Below are positions 57,636 to 62,272 of a stretch of 64,000 bases of DNA, piece by piece. Both the position numbers and the translations under genes were made by a program. Origin of the DNA: an uncultured Schlesneria sp. (GTDB lineage: Bacteria > Planctomycetota > Planctomycetia > Planctomycetales > Planctomycetaceae); assembly GCA_903871875.1 (NCBI GenBank), contig CAIQIR010000083.1:1-64000 (forward strand). Reading direction: 5' to 3'. Under the pieces are notes generated by a model. It saw only the letters and a program-made list of their open reading frames with translations, did not search any database and was not told the DNA's origin. Each line of letters begins with the position of its first letter. The first letter of the stretch is position 1.

Positions 57636-58889
57636 TCACTTCCCACCTGGTGACGCCGTTTTGTGTACGGTCAAATCTTCGCCGGGATCAAGCAATTGGA
57701 TGACATGTTGGACCCTGTAGGGGCGATGGACGAGGCCACCGGAGCGCGCCGAGTTCCACTGCATCATGCAGACATGATTCGACGTGGCCAGGATCACCGG
57801 ATCCCCCTTCGCTTCGTTGAGGAACGCCGATTTGCGTGCCAGAATCTCGCGTGAGTTCTCGGGCTTCTGAATGTTGTATACGCCGCCCGATCCACAGCAG
57901 TCCCGCGCCTGTGGAGCCAGTTCCCATTGGTAGCCGGTGGCATCCAGCACACTCGCCGGAATGCCCGCCATTTTCTGACCGTGGATCAGGTGGCAGGGCA
58001 GATCGACGTAGACGCGGGCCGCACCGTCGCGTCGAGGACGCCGCACGGGACCGATCTCGCCGAGAAAACTCAGCACGTCACGGACGGGCAACCGGCCCGC
58101 CAGCGCCTTGCCGAGTGCCAGGCCGCAGCCTGAAGAATTGCTGACGACGGCTTGTACCTCCGACAGATCAAAAGCCTGACGATTCCGTGCCTGCAACGCC
58201 TGGACACCGTCCAGGCCGGTATGTTCCTGAAAGGCGCCGCAGCAACCCTGCTCGGGCGGAATCACAACTTGGACGTTGTTCTCGATCAGCACACGAATCG
58301 TGGCGAAGTTGATTTCACGAAACAGGGCTTCCATCAGGCAACCGGTCAGGAAGGCGACGCGGGGGCCTGTCGGACGATGGCGTTCCATCAATTGTTTCGC
58401 GTAATCGGCCGTCGACTGCACGACCGCCGGACGTCCCGCAAACAGAAAACGGTGCGTCAATAAACCGGTCCGACGTAATAATCGCGCCGGCCATAGCGCC
58501 AGGTTGAACAGAGCGGGGCGCGCCGCCAGCAGGGCCGCCAGCCGCAGGACAAGCGGAGGCCGCGACCGTTTCGCCGCGACATGTTCGTGCTTGACCTGTT
58601 CGAAGATGGTTCCGTAGGGCACGTTGGCGGGACAAGCCGATTCACAGGCGAGGCAACCAACGCACTCGGACGTATAGAAGTCGGTCCAGGGATCTTGAGC
58701 CAACCGGCCTTCCGCCTCTTCACGCCACAGACGCAGGCGACCGCGGGGCGAATTATTTTCGTCGCCGGTCAACTTGTAGGTCGGGCAAACTTCCAGGCAG
58801 AAGCCGCAGTGCACGCAACTGGCCAGCAGATCCTGGTCGTGCGACGCGCATTCGCCGGCTGTTGTGAGGCTTTCTTTTGACGTCGTCAC
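57636..58889 (-). CDS. glcF: Glycolate oxidase iron-sulfur subunit (GlcF-like)
   Basis: A 417-residue iron-sulfur protein. Two ferredoxin-type clusters, CVHCGFCLEVCP and CVGCLACESACP, lie at about 25-36 and 75-86. Two CCG-type cysteine domains follow (CCGAF; CCGSGG). This is the GlcF/LldE-type layout that passes electrons from the flavin subunits of glycolate or lactate oxidation to the membrane. The start codon is GTG, overlapping the stop of the flavin gene as GTGA, so the two are translationally coupled. There is no separate glcE gene, because that part is fused to GlcD upstream. Confidence 0.9.
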   Translation of the reverse strand: MTTSKESLTTAGECASHDQDLLASCVHCGFCLEVCPTYKLTGDENNSPRGRLRLWREEAEGRLAQDPWTDFYTSECVGCLACESACPANVPYGTIFEQVKHEHVAAKRSRPPLVLRLAALLAARPALFNLALWPARLLRRTGLLTHRFLFAGRPAVVQSTADYAKQLMERHRPTGPRVAFLTGCLMEALFREINFATIRVLIENNVQVVIPPEQGCCGAFQEHTGLDGVQALQARNRQAFDLSEVQAVVSNSSGCGLALGKALAGRLPVRDVLSFLGEIGPVRRPRRDGAARVYVDLPCHLIHGQKMAGIPASVLDATGYQWELAPQARDCCGSGGVYNIQKPENSREILARKSAFLNEAKGDPVILATSNHVCMMQWNSARSGGLVHRPYRVQHVIQLLDPGEDLTVHKTASPGGK

Positions 58890-61294
58890 TTAATCTTCGA
58901 TTCCTGCTCGAGAATGGTGATCCAACTCGCTTCCAATGCGGAGGGTGTCGTGTCCGGCAGATGACGTGAATGCCAGTCACCGCCGACGGCCTCGAGTTCG
59001 TCCGCTGTTTCTCTGACCAGAGAATGAATTCGCCCCACCTTGTCGGTGCTGTCTTCCAGATAGCCATGCAACACTCCGTTGTAACAGAGAGCCACGCAGC
59101 GGATCCCGCCCTGTTGGGTCAGATCATGGGCCAGACGCACAAGCTGTTCGGGCACCGTTTTGAACACAAAATCCGGACAGCCATCGGTGGGGGCCGGAAC
59201 GTCGCGTTCACCGTTCATTCCCAGTCCGCACGACGCGGCAAATCCCGACAAAAAGTGCTCGATCAACGGCAATTCGGCCGCCGGACAATTCACGACAATC
59301 CGCAGTCGGCAGTCGGGCGTCGCGGACTGGGACGTCGCCCCCGGGATGAGATCGATCGCGTCGAACCAGTGCATCCAGCAAGTCTTCAGCAGCTGTGGCA
59401 CGGCCGCCGCCTGCGCGGCAAACGAACCCGTCATCCAGAAGACACTGGTCACTCCGCAATCCGGACGCAGCCGTAAGACGTAGTCGACCGGTTGACCGAA
59501 ACGGCAGCCGGTCGACAGCAGAAAGCGAAACAGGTCGTAGCCGGTCGTTGTTTTCACCACGCGTTCGCCGACGCGGATCAGGCGGCCGTCCGGCAGTTGC
59601 CAATTCATGCCGACGATATTGTCACAGAACGGACCGAACCGCGACGAAGCAGGAGCAAATCCGGTCGCATTGACCTGTTCACGCAGCGTTGCCGTCTGGT
59701 CGATCACCAGCGGAAAGCGAAGCTGATGGGGCGCGGCCTGAGCTCGAATATCCGCCGCCGTGGCCTCGGCCGATAAGCAGAGCACGCCGTCGATCGGATC
59801 CAAAAACGGCACAAAGTTGCGAGAACCGACCTTGGCTTTGAGGCTGGCCGCGTCACCGTTTGTCACGGCGATTGGGGAATCATTCGTACTGCCGTTCGGG
59901 ATAAATCGACGCTCGGCGAACACTTTCAGCGGATTCAGTTGATGTCGGGGATTGAACATCTTCGGAATCGCCAGTTGCAGCCGGGTGGTCTCGGGGCCGA
60001 AGACCAGCGGCATATAGTCGGTCTTGTCATTGCCGATGCCATGTTCACCCGACAGCGTTCCACCGACGTCGACCACCCGTTGCATTAACCGCTTGCCGAT
60101 ATGCTCGATCTTTTCCAGTTCACCCGGCCGGCGTGAATCAAACAGGAAATTGGGGTGCAGGTTGCCGTCGCCCGCGTGAAATACGTTAACGGCTCGCAAG
60201 CCCGCGGCGTCCGCTTCGTCATAGACCAGTTGCAGCAATTCGGCCAGCGCTCGCTTGGGGATCACGGCGTCTTGCACGACAAAGTCGGCGCTCAATTGTC
60301 CCATCAGTCCGCCGGCCGCCTTGCGGGCCTTCCAGAGTTTTTTTCGCTGCTCTTCATCGTCGCTAAAGACGACATCCTGCGATCCGGCGGTGCGCAGAAT
60401 CGTGGCCACCGCCTCGACCCGCGCGTCGACCAATTCGGGCGGTCCATCGATTTCGGTCAGCAGCATGAACGAGTCTTTTGGCAGACCGACGGCCATCGGA
60501 CTGTTCTCGACCATCGCCACACAGCGCGGATCCATCAATTCGATGGCCACCGGGAACGACGAATGCGCGACCAGCGCATGAATCGCTTTTTCGGCCGTGA
60601 TCAGGTCCGGGTAAGTGGCTCGGAACGTCCAGACCTTGTCCGGACGGGGCAGGATCCGCAGCCAGAACCGGGTGAAGGCCCCCAAGGTTCCTTCCGAGCC
60701 GACCATGAACCGTTTCCAGTCTTCACGCCACGTTCCGCGGCCGCCCGCTGGACCGCCGAAGCGGTGGACGCTGCCGTCCAGCAGAATCGCCTCGACGCCC
60801 AGCACATAGTTGCTGGTCACGCCATAACGGAAACAGTGGGCTCCGCCCGCGTTCATCGCAACATTCCCCCCCAGCGTGCAGACCGGTCCGCTGGACGGAT
60901 CTGGCGGATAAAAGACGCCGTGCGGTTTGAGGGCTTCGTCCAATTGATTGAGCGTCACACCGCATTCGACTTCGCACCAGAACCCTTCGGTACAGATCTT
61001 TCGCACGCTGCGCAAGGCCGACGTATGCACGATCACGCCGCCCTGTGCGGCGACCGGTCCGCCTGACAGAGATGTTCCCGCACCGCGAATACAGATCGGC
61101 ACGCCGAGTTGCTTAGCGCTCTGGAGGACGCGGATCATTTCGTCGGCGTCGGACGGGATGACCACGGCATCGGGCCGGAATGTCTTGTAACCAAGACCGT
61201 CCGCATCGTAACCCGCCAATTGCGCAGGCGACGTCAGGACTCGCCCGCGGACCACGGATTGTTTCAATAGAGATTCGAGCGGAGTGGAGTTCAT
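58886..61294 (-). CDS. Fused GlcD-GlcE FAD-linked oxidase
   Basis: An 802-residue flavoprotein from ATG 61294; the frame is open 15 codons further. Residues 1-470 match GlcD. They include the FAD-binding PCMH region (IRGAGTSLSGGPVA, PPDPSS, TLGGNVAMNAGGAHC, MVGSEGTLGAFT) and the FAD-oxidase C domain with NVFHAGDGNLHP and SGEHGIGNDK. Residues about 490-802 match GlcE, a second, shorter FAD-type domain (EQVNATGFAPASSRFG, NIVGMNWQLPDGRLI, KTTTGYDLFR). In most bacteria these are separate proteins. Together with GlcF it should oxidise glycolate or a similar 2-hydroxy acid. Substrate is inference from family. Confidence 0.9.
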   Translation of the reverse strand: MNSTPLESLLKQSVVRGRVLTSPAQLAGYDADGLGYKTFRPDAVVIPSDADEMIRVLQSAKQLGVPICIRGAGTSLSGGPVAAQGGVIVHTSALRSVRKICTEGFWCEVECGVTLNQLDEALKPHGVFYPPDPSSGPVCTLGGNVAMNAGGAHCFRYGVTSNYVLGVEAILLDGSVHRFGGPAGGRGTWREDWKRFMVGSEGTLGAFTRFWLRILPRPDKVWTFRATYPDLITAEKAIHALVAHSSFPVAIELMDPRCVAMVENSPMAVGLPKDSFMLLTEIDGPPELVDARVEAVATILRTAGSQDVVFSDDEEQRKKLWKARKAAGGLMGQLSADFVVQDAVIPKRALAELLQLVYDEADAAGLRAVNVFHAGDGNLHPNFLFDSRRPGELEKIEHIGKRLMQRVVDVGGTLSGEHGIGNDKTDYMPLVFGPETTRLQLAIPKMFNPRHQLNPLKVFAERRFIPNGSTNDSPIAVTNGDAASLKAKVGSRNFVPFLDPIDGVLCLSAEATAADIRAQAAPHQLRFPLVIDQTATLREQVNATGFAPASSRFGPFCDNIVGMNWQLPDGRLIRVGERVVKTTTGYDLFRFLLSTGCRFGQPVDYVLRLRPDCGVTSVFWMTGSFAAQAAAVPQLLKTCWMHWFDAIDLIPGATSQSATPDCRLRIVVNCPAAELPLIEHFLSGFAASCGLGMNGERDVPAPTDGCPDFVFKTVPEQLVRLAHDLTQQGGIRCVALCYNGVLHGYLEDSTDKVGRIHSLVRETADELEAVGGDWHSRHLPDTTPSALEASWITILEQESKIK

Positions 61295-62272
61295 AAAATC
61301 GGTCTTACAGCAGGTCGTCTCAATCATCGCGTCGATCACGCACCAATTCGGCGTGTACCACTGCTTCGGAGCAGCAGTGACATCCCATGGGAAACTCTTT
61401 TATAACGCCTTCGCTTCGGCTTCGCTCGCTCGAGCCGTTACTCCAGATCGCCGTCAAAAAAATGGGGCGTTCGTGCGAGCCCAGGGCGGACTTCGTTTCG
61501 CCGACTCAACTCCGCTAGCCCAGACGCCCCCGTCGAGCCGTTCAATGCGATGTTGTCATGCAAAAACCGATGATCAAGTTTGATCAACATTGATCATCTC
61601 CCCTGTTTTGTAGGGTTTGAGCGATTTTTGCCCGATGATCAAGTTTGACTGACATTGATCAACATCCCTGTTTTGTAGCGTTTGATCAATCCGCCTCACG
61701 ATGACTCCCTTCAAAAAAGCTCTTCGACTGAGAAATATTTTCCGGCCTTGGCGCGCACTGACACACACAGAACGCCGTCGGAGTTGATCCGCCGCGATCC
61801 ACGTCACATTCATCGATTGTCACAGTCGCCCCGCTGATGCGTCAGGAGCCACCGCTGGTCGCGAAGAGTCCTGCCGGCTCACTTGCCGTACTGGGCGCAG
61901 GCCACCGATGTTGAAAATCGCTTCTAAAACAAGTTTATCGCGGCGACAGACTATGTCAACGTCAAAATGACGCTGTGGTTTGTTTTTTGTGATAAAACAT
62001 GAATGGTCGTCGCGAGCTACCGGCCAACGCTGCTGGGCGAAAGACTAACGGATCACAATTTCGCCATTGCGAATTCATGGCCCGGAATGCTGCTGGCTGG
62101 CGATCGCCGGTGCCCTGACATCGGTTCGCCCAACACGACCTGCCGTGTGAATCTCAATCACGCCCGGAGACTGGCACGATCATTGCGGCCGAGTCAGGGG
62201 CGGAAACGAAATGATCCGCTCCGCTGACGAAATGACGTTTCCGTTGGTCGTTTTTGTAAAAGGAACCTTGCC
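61295..62272. other. Long intergenic region between the glc genes and the cytochrome peroxidase gene
   Basis: About 980 bases with no convincing gene; a 74-codon frame at 62003-62227 shows no motif or signal. The best structured element is the TGATCA array at 61567-61696. Both flanking genes point away from it, so it should hold divergent promoters. No -24/-12 element was seen. Confidence 0.5.
61567..61696. repeat. 65-bp imperfect tandem duplication carrying a phased TGATCA array
   Basis: Two units of 65 bp (about 61567-61631 and 61632-61696). In unit 1 TGATCA occurs at 61571, 61581 and 61591, exactly 10 bp apart. In unit 2 it occurs at 61636, 61656 and 61683, with a degenerate TGACTG at the expected 61646. 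Both units also share CCCTGTTTTGTAG at 61601 and 61666. Six palindromes in about 120 bp on one helix face suggest cooperative binding of a regulator. The array lies about 280 bp upstream of the glc operon start and about 590 bp before the peroxidase gene. Confidence 0.75.

Follow-up and report, generated by a model that had tools for sequence, protein, structure and literature searches.

Among the closest described systems, phage P4 has the alpha primase-helicase, whose type I iterons lie at ori and at crr, and the Schlesneria module described here resembles this system in combining a primase-helicase with paired sets of 8-bp iterons, putative in Schlesneria and bound in P4 by the C-terminal domain; P4, however, is one replicon with its own origin, whereas the Schlesneria array is a dispersed chromosomal repeat. 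In SaPI Rep and SCCmec Cch2, the C-terminal domain is described as binding iterons that directly follow the helicase's own gene, and Cch2, a helicase related to the D5 family, has only three 5-nt iterons (PMC7581432). The downstream iteron origin of SaPI Rep is attributed there to Ubeda et al. 2007. REP/REPIN sequences are dispersed repeats without genes of their own; their parent copies lie beside a dedicated gene, that of the RAYT tyrosine transposase, and gene and repeat are paired by family (PMC3733652).

The array of interest occupies positions 61567-61696 of the window, as the whole analysed stretch of 64,000 nucleotides is called, in an uncultured Schlesneria genome of 7.61 Mb and 178 contigs (G000). 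It is one of about seventy scattered repeat copies, not a switch for the neighbouring genes. The module shares with SaPI Rep a rep-like helicase gene and a short-repeat array directly downstream, the C-terminal DNA-binding domain here being predicted, and shares with SCCmec Cch2 the direct repeats downstream of the helicase's own gene, which in Cch2 are bound by the C-terminal domain. Unlike SaPI Rep, the Schlesneria helicase belongs to AAA_25 (RecA-like), stands alone between housekeeping genes with no complete island at the loci inspected, and is accompanied by dozens of gene-less array copies scattered in the chromosome; the passages on Cch2 in PMC7581432 mention no dispersed copies. In its gene-less dispersed repeats, its parent copies beside a dedicated gene and its family-specific gene-repeat pairs, the module resembles REP-RAYT pairs in population structure; unlike there, a helicase takes the place of the Y1 transposase as the dedicated gene, the repeats consist of word arrays without the defining GTAG-tagged hairpin, and a link to a transposase was tested for and not found. 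By analogy, the module may work like a SaPI/SCC Rep-origin pair.

Structure and dispersal of the array

TGATCA words start at 61571, 61581, 61591, 61636, 61656 and 61683, six in 118 bp; by chance, such a cluster has a probability of about 1e-10 at a single place and of about 6e-8 across the whole window (36 occurrences in total, against 24.5 +/- 4.9 in shuffles). The six sites of the preliminary description, three of them at 10-bp steps, are confirmed, with clustering far beyond chance. The 65-bp tandem duplication reported there also holds: the two units (61567-61631 and 61632-61696) are identical at 50/65 positions and have in common not only the 13-mer CCCTGTTTTGTAG already noted but also a 17-mer, CCGATGATCAAGTTTGA. 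A repeat search of the array returned 85% over 59 nt, and the sole call of Tandem Repeats Finder was the 10-bp array at 61571-61596. The right half keeps two of its three words, the middle one reading TGACTGA, and the sixth TGATCA (61683) is out of the word register, formed at the end of the second core at a site where most other copies have GTTTGAGC. The GC content of the array is 42%, compared to 57% and 55% in the flanks. The features are as follows.

61567-61696, forward strand: whole array, a dispersed repeat copy of the TTGATCAA family without a helicase gene
61561-61566, forward strand: short A-tract directly before the words (CAAAAACC), AAAAAA in other copies; from the sequence and the other copies
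61571-61597, forward strand: left set of words, TGATCA three times in steps of 10 bp (61571, 61581, 61591)
61598-61619, forward strand: first core, CTCCCCTGTTTTGTAGGGTTTG, matching the core with 2 mismatches
61636-61661, forward strand: right word set, TGATCA at 61636 and 61656 with a degenerate middle word at about 61646
61663-61687, forward strand: second core, CATCCCTGTTTTGTAGCGTTTGATC, the exact genus-wide core, its end overlapped by the sixth TGATCA
58886-61339 of the window, and C37:85950-87284 of G000 (locus L046): glcD-like genes, each with an upstream array

A BLAST search of G000 with the 181 bases around the array gave 46 matches, the 25-mer of the second core matched 61 times at <=3 mismatches (reversed control, 0), and a looser unit pattern found 136 units. 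The family was sampled as 134 units at 69 fetched loci, and an all-against-all comparison of these loci revealed a common part of only about 130 bp, with flanks mostly unique to each copy and a further tail shared by a subset. Within the common part, three 8-bp words are followed by the core CATCCCTGTTTTGTAGCGTTTG, further words and a second core, such that a unit consists of two to four words TTGNNCAA at 9-10 bp steps and then CATCCCTGTTTTGTAGCGTTTG. G000 has two word families, TTGATCAA (the type in the window) and TTGGCCAA; 51 of the 69 loci carry only TTGGCCAA and 10 only TTGATCAA, with six that have both kinds of unit and two that include an unclassified unit. Units are mostly paired and neighbours are of the same type (14 A-A, 44 G-G, 0/58 mixed), spaced by 53 bp in 42/44 TTGGCCAA-type pairs and by 64-65 bp in 12/14 TTGATCAA-type pairs. 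The G000 contigs C47, C48, C147, C18 and C90 end at or soon after arrays and, with the assembly breaking at arrays, the copy number in G000 may therefore be underestimated.

Across the genus, at <=3 mismatches, 136 units are present in G000, 61 in G005, 54 in G001, 43 in G002 and 21 in G006, with one unit in each of two other genomes and none in eight (all reversed controls, 0), and the core also occurs in two bins of uncultured Schlesneria among the named relatives. Congener copies are laid out as A-tract, words, core and inverted words, in many cases repeated in tandem every 150-200 bp, and sister arrays of the same architecture have GGCC or AGC as word centre. Because the sister arrays use these other centres, the earlier suggestion that methylation of the GATC sites could affect the array is weakened. 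The exact core had no match among viral contigs, and Rfam returned no match on 12 array loci. A single array at L132 (C70, about 99060) has a third word type, TTGGACAT, and, judged by eye, is most similar to the array that follows a helicase fragment in G004 (L314); no cognate helicase for these words was found in G000.

The tail is 0.6-1.1 kb long, lies on the right side of the array, extending up to about 1.4 kb (L012-L036 and others), and is common to about 19 array copies, 14 of them among the first 30. This tail is a second repeat, and its far end (CTTGTTTCCAAACGTTTGGAAGA, CTGCAGACGGCGACTGACGTGCGACAG) is also found without arrays, e.g., on C86, C144 and C155. No Pfam family was assigned to the tail at threshold, it did not convincingly resemble the helicase proteins or the helicase-bearing loci, and a comparison to plasmids gave no match.

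Helicase genes and their words

In several congeners' arrays, the repeat runs across the stop codon of an AAA_25 gene. When G000 was searched with the congener protein, exactly two homologs were identified at E <= 1e-3, and each has an array on its 3' side in a one-to-one pairing with word type, TTGATCAA on contig C120 and TTGGCCAA on contig C133. By our own arithmetic, the chance of a given gene ending <=300 bp from one of the 69 arrays is about 0.003, and about 1e-5 for both genes. Short words directly downstream of the helicase gene, as in the SaPI/SCC module, were found at both of the G000 genes (2/2) and at 15/15 close congener copies (>=73% identity; G001, G002, G005 and G006), all of which end inside an array; these copies, drawn from the 30 loci of the genus-wide search, are related and do not represent 15 independent events. 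The words are not present in all distant homologs, with no array seen by eye 3' of L310, L312, L321, L327, L387, L392 and L396. In a test blind to the words themselves (>=4 copies of one 7-mer), 11/41 helicase 3' flanks were positive, compared to 7/215 control gene flanks and 1/31 helicase 5' flanks; the test covered 41 of the 43 helicase loci, the other two having flanks of insufficient length, and the 31 5' flanks that were long enough, with 15 array-bearing control genes excluded. L399 and L400, which repeat L315 and L322, were counted once. Gene calls for this test, for the locus context and for the orientation counts below, which were tabulated by hand, were made with a home-made codon-usage caller.

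In pairwise comparison of the helicase loci, gene and array form one shared block, which mostly begins within about 70 bp upstream of the gene (about 170-300 bp in some). The neighbouring genes at L200, L201 and L203, judged by eye, are D-Ala-D-Ala carboxypeptidase-, dehydrogenase-, lysS- and uvrA-like, and an island context of integrase and related genes was absent from these three loci. Recombinase-like frames were seen by eye downstream only of the distant relatives L311 and L312. In G008 and G010, integrase- or resolvase-like frames (by eye) follow shortly after distant helicase relatives, a hint that integrative elements may be the source. The helicase family is itself multi-copy, with 22 matches in G014, many of them fragments at contig ends.

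Pfam assigned AAA_25 to 11/11 tested proteins. The relative in G011 has an additional PriCT_2 domain and an N-terminal part that matches phage primases, and the N-terminal part of the C120 protein likewise matches phage primase families, though Pfam names none there. Distant relatives were detected by tblastn in 70 phage records and 10 plasmids; the 20 listed of the 70 phage relatives carry primase and/or helicase annotations, in one case polymerase/primase. Modelled with AlphaFold2 (mean pLDDT 78), the C133 protein has a RecA-like core; its C-terminal domain is separate, confidently modelled and made up of three helices and two strands, and is read as a winged helix with a putative role in DNA binding. 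The best Foldseek matches were helicase folds; RadA, DnaB and RSF1010 RepA were among the matches, as were phage AAA/primase proteins, and a phmmer search of the C133 helicase against PDB sequences gave no match at E 0.01.

Other helicase genes have other words on their 3' side, including TTGCTCAA/TTGAGCAA in G003 and G011, TTGGACATC in G004 and CTGGCCA at another G003 gene, with further repeated words at helicase loci L391, L393, L394 and L398. The TTGAGCAA array was predicted as a third pair and then searched for in the genus, with 13 matches in G003 (10 at <=2 mismatches, one of which adjoins its helicase gene) and one in G011, 183 bp past the helicase gene, although the reversed control was not clean (two matches in G006, three in G003). 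The 12 matches in G002 are all at 2-3 mismatches and of the TTGATCAA/TTGACCAA kind, and the other twelve genus genomes, G000 included, have none. The G003 copies retain the same architecture with the words swapped. Further, TCG-centred words occur at four of five fetched second-subfamily helicase genes (G001, G002 and G005; the G006 gene has none), and arrays of this type amount to 38 distinct copies, of which seven lie at helicase loci and 31 at other places (reversed control, 0), counted in loci fetched for other reasons only, with duplicates removed by identical 90-nt sequence. In all, at least four word families are each paired with a helicase lineage of their own.

Transposon-like and regulatory explanations

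It is unlikely that the arrays are an ordinary non-autonomous transposable element (MITE- or REP-like) dependent on some other transposase, with the helicase gene as a passenger that gained an array. The repeat is short, dispersed and intergenic with species-level expansions, as such an element would be, RAYT-type Y1 genes are present in 15/15 genus genomes, and GTAG-tagged hairpins lie between units in congeners; however, none of the five Y1 loci in G000 has an array, the numbers of Y1 genes do not track those of arrays, and a passenger gene leaves the lineage-specific helicase words unexplained. With this absence of linkage, a RAYT-driven REP was rejected. No GTAG-tagged hairpin of 20-40 bp was found near 60 scanned G000 array loci or in the window, no consistent hairpin follows the GTAG inside the core (by eye), and the array copies yielded neither a transposase nor a target duplication nor an empty site. 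The hairpins of the congeners, GTAGGGTGGGTCGAGTCTTCGAGGCCCACC between array units at L060, L068, L166, L175 and L180, look like classical REPs.

A cis-regulatory role, in which the arrays would serve as operators or upstream elements for the genes that follow them and be bound by a global regulator, or by the helicase in that capacity, and in which dispersal would be the recruitment of copies into promoters, is quite improbable. The orientation of genes is in its favour, as at 52/66 loci the gene that flanks the core on its 5' side points away from the array (p = 3e-6; three of the 69 loci have no called gene on this side), and no bias exists on the other side (28/53, covering 53 of the 69 loci), but an insertion preference would produce the same bias. 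Likewise, two of the five glcD-like matches in G000, the one in the window and the one at L046, each have an upstream TTGATCAA-type array, possibly by coincidence; glcD-like genes are present in 39/40 relatives, and upstream of the 12 near-full-length congener orthologs (L084-L095) there was no word cluster (0/12) and no alignable conservation. The genes that flank the G000 arrays are unrelated to one another and have no common function, and spacers and parts of the flanks have been copied together with the words, both of which speak against regulation. FNR/CRP-type boxes do not fit by their spacing (by eye), and the peroxidase was not found in the examined loci of 14 relatives. The preliminary proposal of a cooperative operator for the divergent glc and cytochrome c peroxidase genes, drawn from the position of the array between the two and from its helically phased words, can be dismissed as highly implausible, as both outcomes that it named against itself were observed: similar clusters lie beside unrelated genes at 69 loci, and the site is not conserved at the 12 glcD orthologs.

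A candidate iteron array of a rep-like helicase

An iteron array is the best reading because the gene-array order of SaPI Rep and Cch2 was found, with one word family per helicase lineage. 'Iterons', one of the terms first offered for it, is apt for 8-bp words at 9-10 bp steps that recur 3' of a rep-like helicase gene. On balance, the window array is probably a gene-less, dispersed copy of an origin-like iteron array cognate to that helicase. Its parent copy would be the one 3' of the AAA_25 primase-helicase-type gene on contig C120. By analogy to SaPI Rep and SCCmec Cch2, the winged-helix-like C-terminal domain of the helicase may recognise the repeated 8-bp words, placing the enzyme at the core between the two word sets, which it would then open or enter. 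Each helicase lineage has its own word, and copies of its array are dispersed through the chromosome, in this reading as non-autonomous derivatives whose spread the helicase system would drive; their copying may have involved its replication intermediates, a host recombination route or an unseen recombinase. Membership in the SaPI or SCC elements is not claimed because the island context is missing at the loci inspected, the helicase family differs and the roles in binding and as an origin are inferred.

More tentatively, and with somewhat less than even confidence, the arrays could represent a class of interspersed repeat that is kept and copied by a replication-initiator-type helicase and not by a transposase, in which the arrays would be gene-less satellites and helicase and array would co-evolve word by word, giving several independent families in this one genus. 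When a dispersed bacterial repeat has a known parent gene, a transposase is usually involved; the parent gene here is a replicative helicase of phage/plasmid type. No description of dispersed iteron arrays tied to a helicase gene was found in the partial, mostly open-access literature consulted. The helicase-word pairs offer a test bed for the evolution of initiator-iteron specificity and raise the question of whether dozens of potential chromosomal initiation sites are tolerated, silenced or used.

Clear repeated words were also seen in one of the 3' flanks of five helicase relatives on phage contigs. In this flank (L370), at least four GTGTCAC words occur together with ATATAAATCAT segments, a pattern that could be an iteron array in a virus.
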